A stretch of 8,244 nt of DNA from positions 1 to 8,244 of the forward strand of contig CBDUXZ010000073.1 in assembly GCA_965371325.1 (NCBI GenBank). The letters run 5' to 3'. Below, piece by piece: positions 1 through 8,244 of this stretch (the stretch's first letter is position 1; the number at the start of each line of letters is the position of its first letter). This stretch comes from CBDUXZ01 sp965371325 [NCBI: uncultured bacterium] (GTDB lineage: Bacteria; JAUYMQ01). The position numbers and the translations under genes were made by a program. A model generated the notes under the pieces. The model ran no database searches. It was not told where the DNA came from and saw only the letters and a program-made list of their open reading frames with translations.

Positions 1-403
1 ACCCCTGGCACCAGACCTCCTCGCAGCTGAGAAGTTTTTTGAGGTACCGCTTCTTCTGCTCGTCCGTCCCGGTCTGCATAATGGTCGGGCCGGCCCAGGC
101 CAGCCCGATGTAGTTCACCATGAAAGGCACGCCGGCGTGTGCCATCTCCTGATCGATCGTGCGCTGTGAGCCCGAAGGCAGGCCACGCCCGCCAAACTCA
201 TCGGGCCATTCGACCCCGAGATACCCGGCGTCATACACCTTTCGCTGCCAAGCCTGAAGGTAGTTGAACTGATCCTCCGACTCCACTTCGAGGAAGGTCT
301 GCGGTAGTTTGAAGCCGGGATCAGGCGGGCGGTTCTCTTTCAGCCAGGCGCTGACTTCCTCGCGCAGCTTTCGCTTCTCCGCCGATTCATTCTTCTCGGA
401 CAT
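1..403 (-). CDS. Acyl-CoA dehydrogenase, N-terminal part (3' end outside window)
   Basis: Probable FAD-dependent acyl-CoA dehydrogenase, which oxidises an acyl-CoA to the 2-enoyl-CoA in beta-oxidation or a related pathway. Only the first 134 residues are present. They cover the alpha-helical N-terminal domain: a charged first helix (EKRKLREEVSAWLKENRP), then the family hallmark GVEWPDEFGGRG at about 63-74, the helix with QEMAHAGVPF at about 85-94, and the segment TGTDEQKKRYL at about 111-121. The last visible residues, VWCQG, are where the flavin-contacting WCQGFSEP-type motif begins in many acyl-CoA dehydrogenases. The start ATG (403-401) has a strong GGAGGA Shine-Dalgarno 4 nt upstream (plus-strand 408-413). 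Family members are usually about 380-400 residues, so roughly two thirds is missing. Substrate chain length cannot be judged. It is divergent from the DksA-like gene. The family call is firm, the substrate unknown. Confidence 0.93.
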   Translation of the reverse strand, partial: MSEKNESAEKRKLREEVSAWLKENRPPDPGFKLPQTFLEVESEDQFNYLQAWQRKVYDAGYLGVEWPDEFGGRGLPSGSQRTIDQEMAHAGVPFMVNYIGLAWAGPTIMQTGTDEQKKRYLKKLLSCEEVWCQG

Positions 404-607
404 CGCTTCCTCCAAGCACCGTTTCTGCCCCCCTCATCCCGCAAACGGCGCCTCACGGTTGAACCATCCAGGACACTATCGCGCACCCGATTTGTAGCAG
501 ACCCTACGGTTCGGGAAAAGAGGGCTGCTTGTCGGAAGAGCCAATGCGTGACGAGACAACTGAGTGAAGTTCATTCCCTTTCCCGGTGCACATTAGAAAA
601 GCAGGCC

Positions 608-623
608 CTGACCCCGGATGTCT
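608..623 (+). repeat. Degenerate copy of the CTGACCCCGGAYGT element
   Basis: This 16-nt stretch matches 14 of 16 positions of 1387-1402, at the end of the DksA-like gene. The shared core is CTGACCCCGGA followed by YGT. The left palindrome arm (GGGGT) present in the other copy is not conserved here. It lies in non-coding DNA upstream of the sigma-54 promoter. It may be a decayed member of a dispersed short palindromic repeat family, or a coincidence of GC-rich sequence. Two copies in 8 kb is suggestive only. Confidence 0.35.
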
Positions 624-715
624 GGCGCTGCCAAAGTTGCAAGCACGCGCGTATCCATCGCAGAGTTTGCACGCCCGTCGGGGCCGACACGGGTTATTTG
701 CGGGGAAATATTGCC

Positions 716-731
716 GGGCACGCTTCTTGCT
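716..731 (+). promoter_or_regulatory. Sigma-54 (RpoN) -24/-12 promoter
   Basis: The sequence GGGCACGCTTCTTGCT matches the RpoN consensus TGGCACGNNNNTTGCW at every specified position except the first base. The invariant GG (717-718) and GC (729-730) are separated by exactly 10 bp, as required. Initiation is expected near 742, about 60 nt before the chosen ATG at 805. The gene driven would be the DksA/TraR-like protein. Its activator (an AAA+ enhancer-binding protein) is not in the window. The motif match is directly visible; activity is inferred. Confidence 0.72.
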
Positions 732-804
732 CGGTCCTTGTTTAATCAAGTGCTGCCGCCGGTGCGCGCCTCCCGTGCACGCGGAGCAGTGTGGGGTGAC
801 GGGC

Positions 805-1404
805 ATGGCGTCACGTCGGGTCAAGCGATCCAAAGGGTCGGAAGGCCACCAACGGGGGAAGAAGGCCAAGGGGAAGCAGCCCAGGTACATCCCCAACCGC
901 GATCGCTCCCTCGCTTCCAGGAATGCCCCCCGCGTGCGCTCCACGGGCACCTCCGCCAGCCGCCAGCCGCAGGAAGTATCCCTGGGGTTTCCTCCCGCCG
1001 ATGCCGAAGCCGATCACATAGGTCGAATGCCGCTGGGTCCCGACGAGGTTGAGCGACTCAGGAGCCTCCTTCATCAGCGGCACAAGACCACGCTCAATCT
1101 CCTCCGCCGTGTCACGACCGCCGAATCCGAGGTTGTCACCGCGAGGATGATCAGCCCGGAGCTTGCCGAGCGTGGGACCGACCGTGCGATGGAAATGCTC
1201 CTCATACAAGAGGAGGCGAAAGAGCTCGCCGAGATTGACGCAATTGAAGCCGCACTGAAGCGCATGCGCTCCGGATTCTACGGCATCTGCACGGCCTGCG
1301 GGGAGCGGATTTCCTACCGGCGTCTTCTCGCCCTGCCCGAAGCGACACGCTGCATCCGCTGCGAGAAGGGGCGCAACCAAAGGGGTCTGACCCCGGACGT
1401 TTAA
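805..1404 (+). CDS. DksA/TraR-family zinc-finger protein with basic N-terminal extension
   Basis: Probable RNA polymerase secondary-channel regulator of the DksA/TraR family. Residues about 77-155 form the predicted coiled coil. The C-terminal C4 zinc finger has C162-x2-C165 and C183-x2-C186 (GICTACGERIS then RCIRCEKGR), with the family's FYGICTACGE-type lead-in. At the coiled-coil tip, the DRA of the DksA DxxDxA motif is present (D126, A128) but the first acidic residue is not (R123; E122 is adjacent), so ppGpp/DksA-like action is not assured. Residues 1-74 are rich in Arg and Lys and resemble no known domain. I chose ATG 805 because GGGGTGA lies 5 nt upstream and the start follows the sigma-54 promoter. 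ATG 1027 would give a more usual 125-residue protein and remains possible. The last residues, RGLTPDV, are encoded by a palindromic repeat. Family call strong, start uncertain. Confidence 0.8.
   Translation: MASRRVKRSKGSEGHQRGKKAKGKQPRYIPNRDRSLASRNAPRVRSTGTSASRQPQEVSLGFPPADAEADHIGRMPLGPDEVERLRSLLHQRHKTTLNLLRRVTTAESEVVTARMISPELAERGTDRAMEMLLIQEEAKELAEIDAIEAALKRMRSGFYGICTACGERISYRRLLALPEATRCIRCEKGRNQRGLTPDV
1382..1394 (+). repeat. Short palindrome GGGGTC-T-GACCCC at a gene end
   Basis: A perfect 13-nt palindrome (6-nt arms, one central T) is followed by GGACGTTTAA and supplies the final codons and stop of the DksA-like gene. In RNA it could form a GGGG/CCCC stem with a 5-nt loop followed by a short T stretch, a poor terminator at best. 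It resembles REP-type extragenic palindromes, and a degenerate copy lies at 608-623. Its right arm also holds the -35 of the next gene's putative promoter. Membership in a genome-wide repeat family cannot be tested from one window. Confidence 0.5.
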
Positions 1405-1415
1405 GCTGGTAAAGT
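1387..1415 (+). promoter_or_regulatory. Putative sigma-70-type promoter of the COG3146 gene
   Basis: CTGACC (1387-1392, 4 of 6 to TTGACA) and TAAAGT (1410-1415, 4 of 6 to TATAAT) are separated by 17 bp. The predicted start of transcription is near 1422, one base before ATG 1423, so the mRNA would be leaderless. This fits the absence of a Shine-Dalgarno there. Both hexamers are imperfect; the call gains weight from the same arrangement at clpS and bioB. Confidence 0.42.
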
Positions 1416-1422
1416 CCAATGC

Positions 1423-2592
1423 ATGAGCAAGCCACTCACGGCGCGAATTGCCGGGAAGATGACCGAAGTCTCGCGGGAGGCATGGGACTCCCTCCTGAGC
1501 GATAACCCGTCTCCCTTTCTGCGTTGGGACTGGCTGAGCCTTCTCGAAGAAACCGGATGCGCCGTTCGGGCCTCGGGTTGGGTCCCTCACCACGCCCTCG
1601 TGTTCCGCCAGGAACAGCTCGTTGGCGCCTGCCCCATGTACCTGAAGCTCCACAGCATGGGAGAGTTCGTCTTCGATCACGATTGGGCGCTCTACGCTGA
1701 GCGCCTCGGCATTAACTACTACCCGAAACTCCTTATCGGCATTCCCTTCACGCCCGTGGCGGGTCCGCGGTTCCTGACGGCACAGAACGAAGACCGTCCG
1801 GCGCTTGTCTCGCTCATGGGCAAGGTGATCGCCAAACTTACCGTCGAGAACGGCATCTCCTCCGCCCATGTGAACTTCTGCCGCGAAGACGAAACGAAGG
1901 CCCTGGAGGGGATCGGGTACCTCCGTCGCGTCGACGTCCAGTTCCACTGGCAGAACCGGGGATACCGCGATTTCGAGGGCTTCCTCCAGGAGGTGCGATC
2001 CGGCAGGCGAAACAAGATCCGAAGGGAGAGGAAGGAACTCGTGCGGCAGGGGATCACGATTCGCATCATCGAGGGGAACGACGTGACGCCCGAGATCGCC
2101 GATACGCTCCACGATCTCTACGCCGCCCACGTCGACAACCTCTACTGGGGACGCCGGTACCTGACGCCGGCGCTCTTTCGGGCGCTTGCAGAGCGTATGG
2201 GCGATCATCTCCTCCCCATCCTCGCTGAACGGAACGGGAAGACCATCGCGGGCACGCTGAACCTCGTGGACGGGGATGCCCTTTACGGGCGCTATTGGGG
2301 AGCCTTCGAACAGCACCGCTTTCTGCACTTCAACGTCTGCTACTACGCTGCAATCGAGGCATGTATCGCACGGGGATTGTCACGCTTCGAGGCGGGGGCA
2401 GGCGGCGACTTCAAGCAGTTCCGGGGGCTGGATCCCGAATTCACCACAAGCATGCACTTCATTCATGATGAGCGCTTCAGGGACGCGCTTGACGCCCACC
2501 TGGCGAAGGAGAGAGGGTCAGTCCGCCAGTTTCGGGAGAAGCTCCGCGCGGATCGAAGTCAACTCAAGCGGGTTCGTCGTCGGGATAGCTGA
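1423..2592 (+). CDS. COG3146 / FemAB-like (DUF482) GNAT-fold acyltransferase
   Basis: A 389-residue protein of the COG3146 group (Pfam FemAB_like, formerly DUF482), predicted to be a cytoplasmic acyl- or aminoacyltransferase of GNAT fold. Its substrate is not established. Recognisable family blocks are FLRWDWLSLLEETG (32-45), the GEFVFDHDWA and YYPKLLIGIPFTPVAGPR region (80-116), FHWQNRGYRDFEGFL (174-188) followed by the basic stretch SGRRNKIRRERK (193-204), the WGRRYLT motif (242-248), GTLNLVDGDALYGRYWG (277-293), FLHFNVCYY (300-308) and EAGAGGDFKQFRG (323-335). Length is normal for the group. There is no signal peptide or membrane segment. No Shine-Dalgarno precedes ATG 1423; a -10-like TAAAGT ends 7 nt upstream, suggesting a leaderless message. 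The last 29 bp overlap the convergent clpA end. It may be co-transcribed with the DksA-like gene 18 bp upstream, but no functional link is evident. Confidence 0.88.
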   Translation: MSKPLTARIAGKMTEVSREAWDSLLSDNPSPFLRWDWLSLLEETGCAVRASGWVPHHALVFRQEQLVGACPMYLKLHSMGEFVFDHDWALYAERLGINYYPKLLIGIPFTPVAGPRFLTAQNEDRPALVSLMGKVIAKLTVENGISSAHVNFCREDETKALEGIGYLRRVDVQFHWQNRGYRDFEGFLQEVRSGRRNKIRRERKELVRQGITIRIIEGNDVTPEIADTLHDLYAAHVDNLYWGRRYLTPALFRALAERMGDHLLPILAERNGKTIAGTLNLVDGDALYGRYWGAFEQHRFLHFNVCYYAAIEACIARGLSRFEAGAGGDFKQFRGLDPEFTTSMHFIHDERFRDALDAHLAKERGSVRQFREKLRADRSQLKRVRRRDS

Positions 2593-4834
2593 GGGTGAGC
2601 TTGTCCTCTCCGTCGAAGTCAACGAGAACCTTTCCTCCACCTCTAAGGCGCCCGAAGAGAATCTCGTCGGCGAGAATTTGCTTGATTGAGACCTGAATGA
2701 GCCGCGCCATGGGCCGCGCGCCGAAGGTGGCATCATAGCCCTTCTCCGACAGCCAGCCGCGCGCCTCCCGCGTGACCTCCATGTCCACGCGCTTCTCGGC
2801 AAGCTGCAGATCGAGTTCCGTCAGAAACTTGTCCACGACACGCTCCACCACTTCCGGAGGGAGGGTGTTGAATTCGATGATCGCATCAAGGCGGTTTCTG
2901 AACTCGGGGCTGAACATCCTCTCTATCGCTTCCTTCCCTTTCGACAGGTCGGGCCCTGAACGGGTGAACCCCGGCGCCTGGCGGCTCATCGCCTGGGCGC
3001 CCGCGTTCGTGGTCATGATGAGAATCACATTCCTGAAGTCCGCCTTCCGCCCGTTGTTGTCGGTGAGCGTCGCGTGATCCATCACCTGAAGAAGAACGTT
3101 GAACACGTCGGGATGCGCTTTCTCGATCTCGTCGAGCAGCAGCACCGCGTAGGGATTCCGGATGATGGCGTCAGTGAGGAGTCCGCCCTGATCGAAACCC
3201 ACGTAACCCGGGGGGGCACCGATGAGGCGCGAAACAGTGTGCTTCTCCATATACTCACTCATGTCGAAGCGCTCGAAGGAAACCCCGAGGATGCGCGCAA
3301 GCTGAAGGCCGACCTCTGTCTTGCCGACTCCCGTCGGACCCGCAAAGAGAAAGCTCCCGATGGGCCGGGTGGGCGCACCCAGGCCCGAGCGGGACATTTT
3401 GATCGCCGTGGCCAGCGCCTGAATTGGCGGCTCCTGTCCGAATACAACCTGCTTGAGATCGCTCTCCAGCGTCGCAAGCGCTTCCCGGTCGGAAATAGAA
3501 ACGTTCTTCACGGGAACGCGGGCGATTTGCGAAACGATCGCCTCGATGTCCTTCGCCGTGACTACCCTCTTCTTGCGCGGCTTGGGCTGAAGCTTGATCT
3601 TGGCTCCCGCCTCATCGATGACGTCGATGGCCTTGTCGGGGAGGTGTCGATCGTTGATGTGCTTCGCGCTGAGTTCAGCAGCCGCGCGGATGGCGGACGC
3701 CGAATAGGTGACGCCATGGTGCTCCTCGTAGTGCGGTTTCAGCCCGCGAAGGATTTCGATCGCTTCACCCAGCGAGGGCTCCGATACCTCGATGCGCTGG
3801 AACCTCCGGGAGAGCGCCCTGTCGCGCTCGAAGTAGCTCTTGTAATCGTGGTAGGTGGTCGAGCCGATGCAGCGCAGATCACCCGTGGCCAGCGCGGGCT
3901 TCAGAAGCATCGCAGCGTCCATGGCGCCGCCCGTCGCCGCGCCGGCGCCGACGATCGTGTGAATCTCGTCGATGAAGAGAATCGCGCCGGGAATCTCCCG
4001 GAGCGCCTTCAGGACGGCCTTCATGCGCGATTCGAACTCTCCGCGAAACTTAGTTCCCGCGAGCAGCGCCCCCATATCGACGGCATAGATGCGGGCGTCA
4101 CGGAGCGACTCCGGAACCTCGCCCTCGGCTATCTTCCTGGCGAGCCCCTCCGCCAGTGCGGTCTTTCCAACGCCCGCATCGCCGACAAAGAGCGGATTGT
4201 TTTTCCGGCGGCGGGACAAAACGTGGATCGTCCGCTGGATTTCGGCCTGGCGTCCGACGAGGGGATCTATTTTCCCCTGCTTCGCGCGCTCGACTAGATC
4301 CGTGGTGTATGCGCCCAGGGGATCCTGCTGGCTCTCCCCCTCCCCCTCGGCATGGGAAAGGCCCATCTCGTCACCCCGCAAGGAGCCGTCGTCCTCGTCG
4401 GGTATTTTCGAGATACCGTGGGAGACGAAGTTCAGGACGTCGAGGCGGCTGATCTCCTGCTGCTCGAGAAGATAGAGCGCATGAGAACCGCCCTCGCGGA
4501 AAAGTGCCACGAGCACGTTCACCGAATCGATCTGCCGCTTCCCGGCCGACTGCACGTGGAGCGCAGCCCGATGCATGACGCGCTGGAAGGCAAGGGTCTG
4601 GGTTGGATCGTTCTCAGCACCTTCGGGGAGCTTCTCGACGGAATCCTCAAGGTAATCCTCAAGCTCCCTTCGCAGCAGATCGACATCCCCCCCGCACTGA
4701 CGAATCACCGCGCGGGCGTCCTCATCATGAAGAAGCGCGTAAAGGACGTGCTCGAGGGTCAGGTACTCGTGACGCCGTCTTTTGGCTTCGGCCACCGCCA
4801 GTCCGAGCGTCGCCTGCAGTTCGCGGCTGATCAA
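2564..4834 (-). CDS. clpA: ATP-dependent Clp protease ATP-binding subunit ClpA
   Basis: AAA+ unfoldase that threads substrates into the ClpP peptidase and receives N-degron substrates from ClpS. From the TTG start it has 756 residues (E. coli ClpA: 758). Order: Clp N domain (ISRELQ... about 1-143, two repeats), an acidic linker (about 145-175), AAA1 with Walker A GDAGVGKT (218-225) and Walker B ILFIDEIH (285-292), then AAA2 with Walker A GPTGVGKT (499-506), Walker B VLLLDEIEKAH (564-574), sensor region FRNRLD (645-650) and GARPMARLIQ near the end. TTG 4834 is preferred to GTG 4852 because a GGAGGA Shine-Dalgarno sits 4 nt before it and the product then begins like other ClpA proteins (M-[IL]-x-x-E-L). 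It overlaps the clpS stop as TTGA. Oddity: the ClpP-docking loop, IGL in E. coli, reads APGF (PGF at 621-623). The 3' end overlaps the convergent gene by 29 bp. No terminator is seen. Confidence 0.97.
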   Translation of the reverse strand: MISRELQATLGLAVAEAKRRRHEYLTLEHVLYALLHDEDARAVIRQCGGDVDLLRRELEDYLEDSVEKLPEGAENDPTQTLAFQRVMHRAALHVQSAGKRQIDSVNVLVALFREGGSHALYLLEQQEISRLDVLNFVSHGISKIPDEDDGSLRGDEMGLSHAEGEGESQQDPLGAYTTDLVERAKQGKIDPLVGRQAEIQRTIHVLSRRRKNNPLFVGDAGVGKTALAEGLARKIAEGEVPESLRDARIYAVDMGALLAGTKFRGEFESRMKAVLKALREIPGAILFIDEIHTIVGAGAATGGAMDAAMLLKPALATGDLRCIGSTTYHDYKSYFERDRALSRRFQRIEVSEPSLGEAIEILRGLKPHYEEHHGVTYSASAIRAAAELSAKHINDRHLPDKAIDVIDEAGAKIKLQPKPRKKRVVTAKDIEAIVSQIARVPVKNVSISDREALATLESDLKQVVFGQEPPIQALATAIKMSRSGLGAPTRPIGSFLFAGPTGVGKTEVGLQLARILGVSFERFDMSEYMEKHTVSRLIGAPPGYVGFDQGGLLTDAIIRNPYAVLLLDEIEKAHPDVFNVLLQVMDHATLTDNNGRKADFRNVILIMTTNAGAQAMSRQAPGFTRSGPDLSKGKEAIERMFSPEFRNRLDAIIEFNTLPPEVVERVVDKFLTELDLQLAEKRVDMEVTREARGWLSEKGYDATFGARPMARLIQVSIKQILADEILFGRLRGGGKVLVDFDGEDKLTLSYPDDEPA

Positions 4835-5157
4835 GCTTCCTCCAGCGTACACTTCAAGGGGTAGTCGTGCTCTTCAGCGAGAGCCTGGGTCTGGGCGACC
4901 TTGGTCTCCGCGATCTCATAGGTGTAAACCCCCGCAACTCCCATGCCCTTCTTATGGATGTGGAGCATGATCTGGACGGCTTCGTTGTCGGGTTTGCCGT
5001 AGACGCTCTGCAGCACCATGACGACGAACTCCATGGTGGTGAAGTCGTCGTTATGCAGGAGAACCTTGTAGAGGGGCGGCCTGGCAAGCTTTAGCCGCCG
5101 CTCGGTCACGACACCGAGATCTCCCTTCTGATCCGGGCCCTGGCGCCTGTCGCTCAT
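4831..5157 (-). CDS. clpS: ATP-dependent Clp protease adaptor ClpS
   Basis: N-end-rule adaptor: it binds N-terminal Leu, Phe, Tyr or Trp on substrates and delivers them to the ClpA N domain. The product is 108 residues (E. coli: 106). A flexible N-terminal tail of about 25 residues is followed by the core RPPLYKVLLHNDDFTTMEFV. Binding-pocket residues seen in E. coli are all present: N36, D37, D38, T40/T41, M42, M64, H68 (E. coli H66) and L101. The C-terminal PLKCTLEEA matches the family's PLxCTLE ending. A longer frame opens upstream at 5226, but MSDRRQ at 5157 fits family length. There is no Shine-Dalgarno before this ATG; a TAAAAT -10 ends 7 nt upstream, predicting a leaderless clpS-clpA mRNA. 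The bioB terminator upstream separates it from bioB transcription. Confidence 0.96.
   Translation of the reverse strand: MSDRRQGPDQKGDLGVVTERRLKLARPPLYKVLLHNDDFTTMEFVVMVLQSVYGKPDNEAVQIMLHIHKKGMGVAGVYTYEIAETKVAQTQALAEEHDYPLKCTLEEA
4838..4843 (-). promoter_or_regulatory. clpA Shine-Dalgarno inside clpS, decides a TTG start
   Basis: GGAGGA on the minus strand lies within the last codons of clpS, with 4 bases to TTG 4834-4832 (counting from GGAGG plus the following AAGC). The upstream GTG at 4852 would place this motif inside clpA codons and add six residues (VYAGGS) absent from ClpA families. Ribosomes ending clpS at TGA 4833-4831 are positioned to restart on the overlapping TTG, so the two proteins are probably translationally coupled. 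Confidence 0.8.
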
Positions 5158-5164
5158 TGCCCGA

Positions 5165-5193
5165 ATTTTAAGCTGACCTTCGCGATGCCGCAA
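5165..5193 (-). promoter_or_regulatory. Putative clpS-clpA promoter
   Basis: On the minus strand TTGCGG (5193-5188, 3 of 6 to TTGACA) and TAAAAT (5170-5165, 5 of 6 to TATAAT) are spaced by 17 bp. Transcription would begin near 5158, one base before the clpS ATG. The -10 is good and the -35 weak. The placement downstream of the bioB terminator makes a promoter here necessary. Confidence 0.58.
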
Positions 5194-5290
5194 CGGTGAA
5201 ACCCCCAAATGCCTTCTGATTCTCAATAATTAACGACCAGTCGGGCCCCCCGCTTGATGACGCTTTGCGGCAGAATCGCAACGCCGTGAT

Positions 5291-5323
5291 AAAAACGCCT
5301 CCTCGATTTCCGTTCGAGAAGGC
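5291..5323 (-). terminator. Rho-independent terminator of bioB
   Basis: On the minus strand, 34 nt after the bioB stop, GCCTTCTCGA (5323-5314) pairs with TCGAGGAGGC (5306-5297) through ten base pairs including one T-G wobble. The loop is 7 nt, and the stem is followed by G then TTTTT (5295-5291). It separates bioB from clpS, so bioB is read as a single-gene transcript. Confidence 0.85.
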
Positions 5324-5357
5324 TCTCTCCATACGTTCCAACCATGGCCGGTTCGAA

Positions 5358-6464
5358 TCAGCGCCTCACACCGCGTCCCTCCGGGTTGCGAATGGAGGGC
5401 TTCAGGATCTCGCCCTCACCATCCAGGTGAAACTCAATCAAATCCTCGTGCGACGCGTCGAAAACCCGCCCGTCGTGATCCGCGTTCCCCTCCACTTCGA
5501 AGCCCGCGTCGTGGATCATCCTGTAAGTTTCACGGATCGAATTGCCCCGCGTCGTAAGATAGCCCTCCACGAAGAGGGAGTTCGCGGGATAGAGCGCAAG
5601 GGATCCGAGTGAGCGCAAGTGCCCCTCTCTTCCGCCGGCGGCGCGAATTTCCGCCCGGGGATTTACGAAGCGGAACATGCAGAGCGCGCGCAGACAGCGC
5701 TCGGGCGTCAGGCTTCCGTCCTTCCGGACGGGATTTCCTTCGATAGGGATCAGAAAGTTTACCGGGATTGAGGGGACCGCGAGCTCGCGCAGCTTGAAGG
5801 CAACCTCCACGAGATCATCGCTCTTCTCCCCCATGCCCATGATGAGGCCGCTGCAACTGCCGATCCCGTGTCGCGCCGCGGCCTCCAGGGTTGCCACGCG
5901 CTCGGCGTACGTATGGGTGGAGCAGATGGCCGGGTAGTGCGCCTCGCCCGTGTTCAGATTGTGATTAAGCCGGTCGAGGCCCGCCTCGGCAAGCATGCGC
6001 GCCTCCTCGTCCCCGATGAGTCCGACGGAAAGGCACGTCTTGATCCCGTAGCGAGACTTGACCTCCCGGATGAGATCCGCGAGCTTGCGCGTGCGCTCAG
6101 GCGTGGGTCCGCGGCCCGAAAGCACCATGCAGTAGCGCGACGCTCCCGCCTTCCAAGCCGACTCCGCCTCGGCGAGAATTTGTTCGTCGGATTTCATGGG
6201 GTACTTGCTGATCGCGGCGGTGGAGTCTTTCGACTGCGAGCAGTAGCCGCAATCCTCCTCGCAGAGCCCGTTCTGAACGTTGTTCAGGATATGCACCATG
6301 ACCTTTCGGCCGAAGTACTTTTGACGGGGCTGGAAGGCCGCATGGAGGAGGGGGAGGAGTTCCGCGTCGTCACCGTCGATGACCCAGCGGGCCTCGGTCT
6401 CGGTCGGCGGGCGATCGGAAAGGGCCCGGCTGGCGAGCCTGTTATAGAGAATCTGGGTATCCAC
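5358..6464 (-). CDS. bioB: Biotin synthase BioB
   Basis: Radical SAM enzyme that inserts sulfur into dethiobiotin, the last step of biotin synthesis, in the cytoplasm. The 368-residue product has the radical-SAM cluster motif C68-x3-C72-x2-C75 in a CEEDCGYCSQS context. The ligands of the auxiliary [2Fe-2S] cluster are present: C112 (YCMV), C144 (KTCLS), C204 (GSCSG) and Arg about 274 in the IRAAGGRE segment (E. coli C97, C128, C188, R260). The YNHNLNT-type motif appears as NHNLNT (167-172), and NFLIPIEGNP (236-245) is the usual substrate/SAM-side block. It is somewhat longer than the E. coli enzyme (346). The start is GTG 6464-6462 with no Shine-Dalgarno: the preceding bases are pyrimidines (CTCCCTCCCC). 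A consensus promoter places the mRNA start about 2 nt before it. No other bio gene is nearby. A terminator follows at 5291-5323. Confidence 0.97.
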   Translation of the reverse strand: MDTQILYNRLASRALSDRPPTETEARWVIDGDDAELLPLLHAAFQPRQKYFGRKVMVHILNNVQNGLCEEDCGYCSQSKDSTAAISKYPMKSDEQILAEAESAWKAGASRYCMVLSGRGPTPERTRKLADLIREVKSRYGIKTCLSVGLIGDEEARMLAEAGLDRLNHNLNTGEAHYPAICSTHTYAERVATLEAAARHGIGSCSGLIMGMGEKSDDLVEVAFKLRELAVPSIPVNFLIPIEGNPVRKDGSLTPERCLRALCMFRFVNPRAEIRAAGGREGHLRSLGSLALYPANSLFVEGYLTTRGNSIRETYRMIHDAGFEVEGNADHDGRVFDASHEDLIEFHLDGEGEILKPSIRNPEGRGVRR

Positions 6465-6472
6465 GGGGAGGG

Positions 6473-6501
6473 AGCATAAGAGCCGGGAGGACGATTGTCA
6501 A
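6473..6501 (-). promoter_or_regulatory. bioB promoter (sigma-70 type)
   Basis: On the minus strand a perfect -35 TTGACA (6501-6496) is followed after 17 bp by TATGCT (6478-6473, 4 of 6 to TATAAT). The predicted transcription start is near 6466, two bases before the GTG codon. The -35 lies inside the left half-site of the BirA-type operator, so repressor binding would directly block RNA polymerase. Confidence 0.75.
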
Positions 6502-6526
6502 TGTAGCTTCCCGATAAGGTTGACAA
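6495..6526. promoter_or_regulatory. BirA (biotin repressor) operator
   Basis: Two half-sites, TTGTCAATG (6495-6503) and GGTTGACAA (6518-6526), are separated by 14 bp. They match the known BirA signal of the form TTGTnAACC-N14-16-GGTTnACAA, the right half fully and the left half at seven of nine positions. The flanks extend the symmetry to a perfect 10-bp inverted repeat, CGATTGTCAA (6492-6501) and TTGACAATCG (6520-6529). Biotinoyl-AMP-loaded BirA is expected to bind here and shut off bioB. birA itself is not in the window. Confidence 0.85.
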
Positions 6527-6549
6527 TCGTGCCCCGCTGGTCCACGAAA

Positions 6550-6572
6550 GTGCCCGGTAGCAGAACGGGCAC
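6550..6572 (+). repeat. Inverted repeat, 7-bp stem
   Basis: GTGCCCG (6550-6556) and CGGGCAC (6566-6572) are perfectly complementary around a 9-nt loop. On the minus strand the stem is followed by only TTTC, so it is a poor terminator. It lies 24 bp beyond the BirA operator. It could be an RNA hairpin or a protein-binding site; function unknown. Confidence 0.5.
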
Positions 6573-6593
6573 ATCTTATCGAACGGGGGATTT

Positions 6594-6609
6594 CTCGCCA
6601 GTGGGCGAG
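6594..6609 (+). repeat. Inverted repeat, 6-bp stem
   Basis: CTCGCC (6594-6599) pairs with GGCGAG (6604-6609) around the tetraloop AGTG. Pairing can extend by a T-G and a T-A pair. There is no T-run on either side. It is the second hairpin in this intergenic region. A structured leader RNA is possible, but I have no family match. Confidence 0.4.
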
Positions 6610-6749
6610 GATGAGTGCCGAAGGGTCGCACGGGGCTCCCCCAGTGCGCCTGAGGATCCCTCTGCTTCCAATCGGTCAAAGGGCTGCGGGCAGGCGTTCC
6701 TAGAGGGTTTTGAGCGCATGGTTTGCACGTTTTTGAGATTAACATCTGA

Positions 6750-6759
6750 TGCATATGCA
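6750..6759. repeat. Palindrome TGCATATGCA, candidate operator
   Basis: A perfect 10-bp palindrome lies in the least GC-rich part of the intergenic region. A wider 7-bp inverted repeat, GTTTGCA (6721-6727) and TGCAAAC (6756-6762), overlaps it. It could be a regulator-binding site for the downstream diiron operon, about 240 bp away. No regulator is identifiable, and short palindromes also occur by chance. Confidence 0.3.
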
Positions 6760-6996
6760 AACTTTGCGCTGCCCCCCGATTCGTTCCTTTCAGACCGGCC
6801 GGCACCACGATTCCAGGCCCCCCCGGAAACCATGGTGGATTCGAGGGAATTTCGGCTTCAAGGCCCAAGTCCGGACCCTCGCCCGCAGATGGCACGTTCC
6901 CTGCTTGAGAAAACCTGAGAGCGGTTTCAGTTTCGCTTGAAAGGACGGACTCACCCCTAAATCAATCACGCAACAAAAAACGGAGGATTCAAATCT

Positions 6997-8079
6997 ATGG
7001 CCGCTAAATACAGCCCTGTTGTAGAGAAGACCCTCGATAACATGGCAGACATGCGGGCCGGCAAATTCAATCTTTCCTGGATGAGCGCGAATCCCGACGG
7101 CTGGAACACGAAGGTAAAAGCCTCGCCCGTCGGCATCACACTCGACAATCTGAACTCCGTTCAGCCGTACGGGGACGTGCCGGAATACGGTTCCGCGATC
7201 GGAAGCATGGCGCCCCGGGGCTGCGAGGTTCCGCCCGACACACCCTCACTCGGCATCTACGACATCAATGAGAAGGGGCTCGTCTGGGCCGACAATGTGG
7301 CGAAGCTCTATGACGAAGCGGTCGCCCGCCAGTGGAGCTCCACGCGGGACATCCCCTGGGAACGCCTCGAGGAGCTCCCGGAGGAAATGGAAAAGGCGGT
7401 CTGCCAGCTCTGCACCGGCCTCACGGAGGTCGAATTTATCGCGGCGGACCTCCCGGCGAAGTGGCTGTGGCGCATCAACCACGACTTCCACGAAGTGAAG
7501 CTCTTCCTGGCCTCCCAGGTCATGGATGAGGCGCGGCACCTGGACGTGTTCCGGAAGCGCGCCCTTGCCAACGGTGGTGGCCTTTTGCAGGCCTCGCCGG
7601 GTTCCGAACGCCTTCTCCGGGCGATCATCGAAGCGCCGAACTACACCGTCGCCAGCTCCCTCATGCACATTCTCGCCGAGGGCTTCGTGCTCACCCTCTT
7701 CCGCCACGGTGAATTCATTGCGCCGACGGAGGTGGAGAAGAAAATCTTCCGCCTCTGCATGCAGGATGAGGCCCGCCACGTGGCCTACGGCACGATGCAC
7801 CTGAAGTACTTCCTGAAGACCTACCCCGAGCGGGAAGAGGAAATTCACGCGATCCTCGCAGTCGGCGAAGAGGCGATCTTCTCGCTGACCACTGAGCCGC
7901 AGAGCATCGAGCCGCGGGCAATTCTCGCGGGAGGCGGTGTCGAGCACATGCACGAGGGCCTGCTGAAGACTTCCTATCTGTACACAAAGCAGATCACCGA
8001 GTATCTGCAGCGCCTGAAGGTGGCCGGGCTCGATCGATCGGAGCGGATCGCCATTCCGGTCGAACTGCCCATGGACTGA
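6997..8079 (+). CDS. Ferritin-like carboxylate-bridged diiron protein, function unknown
   Basis: A 360-residue soluble protein with the four-helix diiron ligand pattern. The first glutamate is E144 or E146 (LTEVEF), then E178-x2-H181 in MDEARH, E228 (LAEGF), and E258-x2-H261 in QDEARH. Spacings (about 32-34, 50 and 30 residues) resemble ribonucleotide reductase R2, R2-like oxidases, bacterial multicomponent monooxygenases and AurF-type N-oxygenases. Unlike AurF there is no extra histidine four residues before E258: C254 is there. A C136-x2-C139 pair precedes the first ligand. Residues 1-100 lack ligands and contain Gly/Pro-rich segments; I recognise no domain in them. A clear GGAGGA Shine-Dalgarno precedes ATG 6997. 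The next gene starts 45 bp downstream and looks like a lipid-carrier protein, so an oxygenase, desaturase or oxidase acting on a hydrophobic or acyl substrate is a reasonable inference. The diiron fold is strong; the reaction is unknown. Confidence 0.82.
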   Translation: MAAKYSPVVEKTLDNMADMRAGKFNLSWMSANPDGWNTKVKASPVGITLDNLNSVQPYGDVPEYGSAIGSMAPRGCEVPPDTPSLGIYDINEKGLVWADNVAKLYDEAVARQWSSTRDIPWERLEELPEEMEKAVCQLCTGLTEVEFIAADLPAKWLWRINHDFHEVKLFLASQVMDEARHLDVFRKRALANGGGLLQASPGSERLLRAIIEAPNYTVASSLMHILAEGFVLTLFRHGEFIAPTEVEKKIFRLCMQDEARHVAYGTMHLKYFLKTYPEREEEIHAILAVGEEAIFSLTTEPQSIEPRAILAGGGVEHMHEGLLKTSYLYTKQITEYLQRLKVAGLDRSERIAIPVELPMD

Positions 8080-8124
8080 GGGAACAACCATTCAGACTGA
8101 ATTCACACAACCCGGGAGATGAAC

Positions 8125-8244
8125 ATGCACGAATTCCCTTCGGAGGAGTGGTTCCGTCAGCTCCAGCAGGCGATGGACGAAGAGGTGGAAAAATACCGCC
8201 GCCTGGGCAGCACCGAGCTGACGCTTTATCTGAAAATGAACTTC
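8125..8244 (+). CDS. Probable SCP2-type sterol/lipid-carrier protein, N-terminal part
   Basis: Only the first 40 residues are in the window. The opening, MHEFPSEEWFRQLQQAMDEE, with an F-P-S-E-E-W motif followed by an amphipathic helix and then a beta-strand-like TELTLYLKMNF, resembles the start of bacterial SCP2 sterol-binding domain proteins, which carry lipids or acyl-CoAs in a hydrophobic tunnel. ATG 8125 is chosen because the Shine-Dalgarno GGGAG (8114-8118) is 6 nt away; the in-frame ATG 8119 is directly adjacent to it and too close. It lies 45 bp after the diiron gene on the same strand with no terminator between, so co-transcription is likely. Too little sequence is present for a firm family call. 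Confidence 0.5.
   Translation, partial: MHEFPSEEWFRQLQQAMDEEVEKYRRLGSTELTLYLKMNF

Follow-up and report, generated by a model that had tools for sequence, protein, structure and literature searches.

We analysed an 8,244-nt stretch of DNA from an uncultured bacterium (CBDUXZ01 sp965371325, contig CBDUXZ010000073.1, positions 1 to 8,244 of the forward strand; hereafter the window), at the downstream end of which two closely spaced genes lie on the plus strand. The first (6997–8079) is a complete open reading frame coding for a 360-aa protein, DI, which was recognised as a diiron protein from the reading frame, its homologues and a structure model; a likely ribosome-binding site, GGAGG (6982–6986), is situated 10 nt 5′ of its ATG. 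The second gene starts at 8125, following a gap of 45 bp (8080–8124), with a likely ribosome-binding site, GGGAGA (8114–8119), in front of it, and runs off the window end after its first 40 codons (8125–8244). Its product, here called the partner, has the N-terminus MHEFPSEEW and a predicted SCP2 fold. A first-pass annotation, made from the sequence alone, had reported a same-strand gene with an FPSEEW start 45 bp downstream of DI, and this was confirmed.

One scan of genome contigs gave 109 confirmed loci, of which the best 80 (L001–L080), chosen by the diiron protein alone, supplied the relatives of DI. They were 48–92% identical to DI, the nearest being that of L001 (92%), with which the window protein grouped in a tree. 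Their taxon labels were mostly those of metagenome bins, assigned to Deltaproteobacteria/Myxococcota, one Binatota, Acidimicrobiia and other Actinomycetota, Chloroflexi and 'Gammaproteobacteria', and several Mycobacterium isolates were also among them. The DI alignments exclude L054 and L069, for which no start was found, and L068 and L080, which have an in-frame TAG; the partners of the latter two were retained in the partner alignment, and the part of the L080 DI that precedes its TAG was mistakenly included in a list of neighbour proteins. It was noticed that the TAG within the DI gene of L068 and L080, both acidimicrobial bins, lies at different positions in the two loci; stop-codon recoding was therefore rejected, and nonsense changes or assembly errors look likelier.

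The residues that the first-pass annotation had named were found at the numbers it gave: E144, E146, E178, H181, E228, C254, E258 and H261 were invariant in 78 of 78 aligned homologues. The CxxC it had pointed out at 136–139 is present in the window, with C136 near-invariant (62/65), whereas C139 is not (37/65). For a wider comparison, 17 distant relatives were aligned out of 26 matches of the DI profile in extra loci, after duplicates, the L001 copy, a split gene in L094 and one very weak match had been dropped. All 17 kept E178, H181, E228, E258 and H261. Since E146 was kept in 13/17 (it is missing from the four copies of L081 and L082) and E144 in only 5/17, although the weak rows are possibly shifted by two residues, the choice of 'E144 or E146' left by the annotation most likely falls on E146. 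C254 was kept in 0/17 and the full CxxC in 2/17, which makes both unlikely members of the metal site. The probable metal ligands are thus E146 (codon 7432–7434, helix 129–157), the ExxH pair E178 and H181 (7528–7539, helix 162–191), E228 (7678–7680, helix 216–236) and the second ExxH pair E258 and H261 (7768–7779, helix 245–275).

With the spacing E146-X31-E178-X2-H181 and E228-X29-E258-X2-H261, DI follows the plan of aldehyde-deformylating oxygenase (ADO), that is, six ligands in two EXnEX2H motifs. DI lacks the seventh ligand of the AurF type, a histidine four positions ahead of the final Glu; this place is held by C254 in 65 of 65 rows, and the annotation had likewise put C254 at the third histidine of AurF. 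Excerpts of PMC6399176 give V72 and Y162 of Geobacillus kaustophilus R2lox as a cross-linked pair; at the corresponding positions, located by their offset from the ligands, DI has A149 in 65/65 and, at position 223, Met in 57 and Leu in 8.

The DI protein scored below every Pfam cut-off, including those of DUF455 (15.7 against 34.3 bits), AurF (PF11583, 13 against 29.6) and ribonucleotide reductase R2 (PF00268, 12.2 bits against a gathering threshold of 33.6), and below every NCBIfam cut-off, the R2lox equivalog model giving 27.3 bits against 194. The ADO model PF11266 did not match the window protein up to an E value of 10, Synechococcus elongatus ADO had no significant profile alignment to the DI profile, and a PDB search with the single DI sequence yielded no significant match. 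When a 65-row DI profile was searched against PDB, the best match was a VlmB homologue (6d9f, E 1.5e-5, residues 160–310), followed at E 0.009–0.1 by R2lox entries, many of them labelled ribonucleotide reductase. A close match to a characterised enzyme was looked for in Pfam, in NCBIfam, in PDB and by profile, and none was found. However, ferritin-like proteins encoded elsewhere in three DI-bearing genomes (L081, L082 and L083, the last with its neighbours) reached the PF11266 cut-off at 39, 28.5 and 28 bits and matched the DI profile at 36, 31 and 61 bits, respectively, so that the DI family can be linked to ADO through successive weak sequence matches.

The structure model of DI was that of a four-helix diiron protein, with a mean predicted local distance difference test score (pLDDT) of 93.2 and a predicted template modelling score of 0.92, and the six ligands sit on its four core helices. 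Foldseek returned R2lox, VlmB and ADO at E values near 0.002–0.01. VIA-align, used as a second look at the Foldseek matches, placed ADO (4rc5) first (Z 21.9, root-mean-square deviation (rmsd) 2.2 Å, 212 of 221 residues, model residues 125–357), then VlmB (Z 20.2, 3.5 Å, 250 residues), R2lox (Z about 19, 3.2 Å) and the methane monooxygenase hydroxylase (Z 18.6, 3.5 Å). As an indirect test of the ligand geometry, the model agrees with the oxygenase-type diiron protein that the annotation had suggested.

DI resembles ADO in its whole-domain fold and in the Glu / ExxH / Glu / ExxH ligand plan, with EX31EX2H and EX29EX2H compared with the two EX28-29EX2H motifs given for ADO in excerpts of PMC4286721, which also state that ADO requires O2 and a reducing system, for which ferredoxin, ferredoxin reductase and NADPH can serve. 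A ferredoxin gene likewise adjoins many DI genes. DI differs from ADO in having some 100 additional residues at its N-terminus, in its SCP2-fold partner and in the negative sequence comparisons given above. VlmB azoxy synthase and its Kitasatospora homologue (8wvr, 6d9f) share with DI the best PDB profile match and a fold Z of about 20, which place DI in the same superfamily as the VlmB-like N-oxygenases, although DI is only about 18% identical to VlmB; VlmB is not known to have an SCP2-fold partner, though no search aimed at one was made. R2lox co-purifies with a fatty acid coordinating both metals, according to excerpts of PMC6399176. With R2lox DI has in common the carboxylate-rich dimetal site and the fold, but neither the cross-link positions nor the NCBIfam score. 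The hydroxylase of soluble methane monooxygenase pairs a catalytic alpha subunit with a ligand-less beta subunit. Besides the fold, DI is like this hydroxylase in that some of its relatives are paired with a ligand-less paralogue, and unlike it in that the window has one ligand-bearing copy and that the ligand-less copies arose inside the DI family. DI would work like the ADO/R2lox/VlmB group in these respects but fails the sequence tests of AurF, R2lox, ribonucleotide reductase R2 and ADO; it is therefore filed as a new family within the known diiron superfamily, in line with the reservation of the first-pass annotation against assigning it to a known class.

Because the window holds only 40 aa of the partner, its fold was read from the full-length copy of L001 (152 aa), with which the window piece shares 33 of 40 residues. 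The L001 model (mean pLDDT 96.6) folds as SCP2, as the annotation had supposed for this neighbour: Foldseek ranks 1–15 were all SCP2 entries, five with E values no higher than 0.001, and the match to Thermus thermophilus TT1886 (2cx7) extended over 124 residues with Z 14.2 and rmsd 2.2 Å. The partner profile matched 2cx7 and 1wfr at E 0.016 and 0.011, respectively. The partner thus appears, from the L001 model, to be an SCP2 protein by fold which lies outside PF02036 by sequence. Unlike SCP2 proteins of the TT1886 type, it has a fixed gene neighbour and no PF02036 match. Its fold is shared with UbiJ (Z 7.4–7.9), whose SCP2 domain, as described in excerpts of PMC6747719, binds hydrophobic intermediates of the O2-dependent ubiquinone pathway; in contrast to DI, the hydroxylases of that pathway in Escherichia coli are described there as flavin enzymes, not diiron enzymes.

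A search with the partner profile revealed, in 79 of the 80 loci, a partner gene directly 3′ of the DI gene and in the same orientation, the sole exception (L045) ending 597 bases past the DI match. Chance is excluded, since 80 loci encode relatives of DI and 79 of them have the partner. In 13 loci (rows up to L053) the DI stop and partner start codons overlap by 1–4 bases, the starts being script-chosen. Distances among DI proteins correlated with those among partners (r 0.79, 58 loci, 0/1000 permutations as high), a correlation that could be explained by shared descent alone.

Co-occurrence was determined in three even samples of whole genomes, 646 in all, with E values of 1e-30 or less for DI and 1e-6 or less for the partner. 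In the class of G007 (L047, Aciditerrimonas; 148 genomes), DI was found in 18 and the partner in 15; three (G129, G147 and G151) had a divergent DI form alone (1e-46 to 1e-55), and the partner was present in exactly the other 15. In the phylum of G006 (L024, Chloroflexi; 251 genomes), DI was found in nine and the partner in seven, the divergent form again standing alone in two (G235 and G381, near 1e-60) and the partner occurring in exactly the other seven. In the phylum of G005 (L012, Polyangiaceae; 247 genomes), eight genomes had DI and the same eight had the partner. With the five divergent-form genomes set aside as a separate subfamily, a split made after the scores were seen, core DI was present in 30 of 646 genomes and the partner in 30/30 of these and 0/616 of the others; four of the 30 (G005, G006, G007 and G010) were already known carriers before sampling. 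The conservation of the neighbour in other genomes, on which the first-pass annotation had made its pairing depend, was thus borne out both in the loci and in the genome samples. In G302, G374 and G382 the partner gene is far from the DI genes and still co-occurs with them, so gene linkage alone does not explain the co-occurrence. The surroundings of these unlinked partner genes had nothing clear in common beyond the partner and one weakly similar protein at 5–8 kb. As they occur together in very different bacteria, DI and the partner probably form one O2-using machine.

Ferredoxin genes were found in many of these loci. The motif CxxCxxCxxxC was located less than 450 bp behind the partner gene in 54 of the 58 loci L023–L080, twice in all but L029. 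Of the four exceptions, L045 and L067 end too early and L047 and L080 show no motif; by tblastn, a ferredoxin match was detected behind the partner in L080 and upstream, on the other strand, in L047. Three further single-copy loci came from the G005 phylum; the motif was present in L153 (Pfam Fer4) and absent from L152 and L154.

Sixteen loci carry DI genes in tandem (L014, 424–2674; L136–L145; L147–L151), in which one copy has all six ligands and its neighbour keeps 0–2 of them. Since the ligands themselves served to sort the copies, the sorting is circular, although the depth of the loss and the adjacency are independent of it. In the ligand-poor copies E178, E228 and E258 were kept in 0/16, E146 in 1/16, H261 in 7/16 and H181 in 8/16, whereas nine columns (G46, R74, W113, W121, R186, K187, R188, D257 and R260) were kept in 16/16. 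K248 and Q112, lost almost as fully (kept in 0/16 and 1/16), may belong to the second shell or to an interface. As far as sequence can tell, this coordinated loss agrees with the assigned six-ligand set. A quick tree with 59 rows requires three changes to account for the ligand-poor copies, each group beside its own ligand-bearing lineage, with the starred branches forcing three; without the long-branched L144 pair two changes are required, and grouping the 15 copies that remain into one clade was rejected (approximately unbiased test, p 0.0025, quick tree). Ligand-less copies have therefore apparently arisen more than once, with two or three origins, although gene conversion between neighbouring copies could mimic repeated origin. 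The partner gene adjoins 10 of the 16 tandem loci, and the other six are in G302, G374 and G382, where it lies elsewhere. The window itself does not have this alpha/beta-like pairing, which was seen in these 16 related loci and arose inside the DI family.

We propose, with a probability of about 0.5, that DI is an O2-dependent, ferredoxin-fed diiron oxygenase whose hydrophobic substrate is presented by the SCP2-fold partner. The proposal builds on the genes, the predicted folds, the conserved ligands, the linkage and the co-occurrence, and from these we infer the use of iron and O2, the electron flow in the window's group, the lipid binding, the substrate and the reaction. DI would be a soluble ferritin-like dinuclear-iron oxygenase, with E146, E178, H181, E228, E258 and H261 holding the metals. 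A low-potential ferredoxin, encoded as a third gene in most of the distant loci, would reduce the diiron site, and in the group closest to the window it would be supplied from elsewhere. By analogy to UbiJ carrying ubiquinone intermediates, the partner may bind the hydrophobic substrate and either present it to the diiron site or take the product away, and O2 bound at this site would serve to oxygenate or desaturate the substrate, which may be a lipid, acyl or isoprenoid compound of the long-chain or polycyclic type.

Several observations weigh against this proposal. None of the Foldseek matches of DI came down to an E value of 0.001, and the five DI models span mean pLDDT values from 93.2 to 80.2, two of them being less confident (82.7 and 80.2). 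With an E value limit of 1, the Pfam model PF02036 matched 0/65 partners, so that routine annotation would be expected to overlook the partner, and an SCP2 fold alone is no proof of lipid binding. The ferredoxin motif was found behind the partner in 0/22 of the loci L001–L022, the group nearest to the window, of which L008 and L021 have fewer than 450 bases left there. Some genomes have several DI genes and one partner gene (six and one in G374), so that one partner may serve several enzymes. No clear lipid pathway was seen among the neighbours: when the 25 commonest families were compared between 116 near and 121 far proteins, selected from 168 and 196 listed, Acyl-CoA_dh_1 occurred in 6/116 and 3/121, without strong enrichment. 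COX1 was carried by 9/9 DI-bearing genomes in the sample of the G006 phylum, which fits O2 use but has little power, because 209 of the 251 sampled genomes carry COX1.

MmoB-type proteins gate the access of O2 and substrate in bacterial multicomponent monooxygenases, and the partner might be a regulatory or coupling subunit of this kind, in which case the substrate would perhaps be small and soluble. We regard this as unlikely, while noting that it accounts for the complete co-occurrence even in unlinked genomes, for the 1–4-base overlaps of the two genes and for the gain of ligand-less second copies by DI relatives, as in multicomponent monooxygenases. The fold of the partner, however, is that of lipid-carrier SCP2 proteins, and several DI genes per partner gene fit a shared carrier at least as well.

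It is rather improbable that DI is a functional aldehyde-deformylating oxygenase, to which the carrier would bring fatty aldehydes for conversion into hydrocarbons. ADO is the best structural match (212/221 residues, Z 21.9), shares the six-ligand plan and has ferredoxin as a possible donor, and to this can be added the title of the profile match 6d9f, which mentions aldehyde deformylating activity, and the weak bridge through L081–L083, with the PF11266 cut-off reached and 31–61 bits to the DI profile. Yet VlmB and R2lox fit almost as well, the window protein has neither a PF11266 match up to E 10 nor a significant profile alignment to S. elongatus ADO, and a recurring aldehyde-forming reductase beside DI was not seen among the neighbours listed.

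Ferritin-like folds also include iron-store, peroxide-handling and redox-sensing proteins, and Rrf2-type regulators adjoin DI in some loci. That DI is such a protein rather than an oxygenase appears equally improbable, since its nearest folds are oxygenases and oxidases, many loci have a dedicated ferredoxin gene, and ligand loss is restricted to the neighbouring paralogue, which suggests labour divided between catalytic and non-catalytic copies. A role in nitrogen-oxide respiration or nitrosative-stress handling, brought to mind by NorB-type genes near DI in L006, L012, L017 and L029, a molybdenum complex of the nitrate-reductase or ethylbenzene-dehydrogenase type in L001 and L037, and an Rrf2-type regulator in seven loci, is very improbable and was dropped as a general explanation, because NorB was found in 4/80 loci only, L012 and L017 being sister rows, and PF22085, a model that covers only NorB with a cytochrome-c-like domain, matched in 0/148 genomes of the G007 class, although the pair is present in 15 of them; for a small number of myxobacterial loci this role may still apply.

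Proteins of the diiron oxygenase type are familiar; what sets this family apart is its constant SCP2-fold partner and the recurrence of ligand-less copies, and no publication on a diiron–SCP2 pair was found in listings of the open-licence literature. More tentatively than the ferredoxin-fed oxygenase proposed above, we consider it possible that the pair represents a diiron oxygenase system of a new class, with the SCP2-fold protein as an obligatory lipid shuttle. In that case, too, the SCP2-fold protein would be indispensable to the enzyme and the scaffold would have split repeatedly into catalytic and ligand-less subunits, independently repeating the alpha/beta arrangement of methane monooxygenase. 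If the proposed reading is true, an uncharacterised diiron family found across Myxococcota, Binatota, Actinomycetota (Acidimicrobiia and some mycobacteria) and Chloroflexota uses a dedicated carrier for its hydrophobic substrate, which would be a natural route to oxygenating poorly soluble compounds. The strict co-occurrence of DI and the partner offers a clean genetic handle on function, and the repeated ligand-less tandem copies make the evolution of catalytic and structural subunit pairs in diiron oxygenases testable.

Neighbour lists are approximate, as genes were called by a codon-usage script that misses small genes, ferredoxin included; with this limit, 13 was the largest number of loci in which a gene-cluster survey found any gene besides DI and the partner in common. 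The partner gene of L001 is followed after 131 bp by a molybdenum enzyme set (2266–8505) with matches to Molybdopterin, 4Fe-4S, EB_dh and Nitrate_red_del, consisting of an alpha subunit of 1166 aa with a weak match to a twin-arginine translocation signal, an Fe-S beta subunit, a gamma subunit of the ethylbenzene-dehydrogenase type and a chaperone-type delta subunit; a relative is found in divergent orientation in L037. A distant DI relative (58 bits) on a Rhodococcus opacus plasmid (L101, 3051–7102) is flanked by a molybdopterin oxidoreductase and the ferredoxin FdxA, reminiscent of the molybdenum set and the ferredoxin genes near the pair, and an SCP2-like match was absent from the 12.3 kb read there. 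In a divergent subfamily, seen in L092 (5394–12003) and L093 (1852–8116), proteins of the Amidohydro_2 and hydantoinase A or B types join the diiron and partner genes and, in L092, a ferredoxin gene, a possible clue to substrate. The NorB-type nitric oxide reductase genes near the pair are situated at 11594–14008 in L012, 11592–14012 in L017, 13981–16395 in L029 and within 2328–8623 in L006, where a multicopper-oxidase/cytochrome c protein is also near the pair.

In the window, a biotin-synthase-type gene (Radical_SAM and BATS) lies upstream of DI, divergent and 532 bp away. A scan for sigma-70-like promoters gave a match on the minus strand (6473–6501) before this gene, with 0.5 expected by chance in the scanned stretch, and none before the DI gene. 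Further upstream, a FemAB_like gene (1423–2592, plus strand) and a ClpA-type gene (2564–4852, minus strand) overlap tail to tail by 29 bp (2564–2592), and a ClpS gene (4831–5226, minus strand) overlaps the start of the ClpA-type gene.

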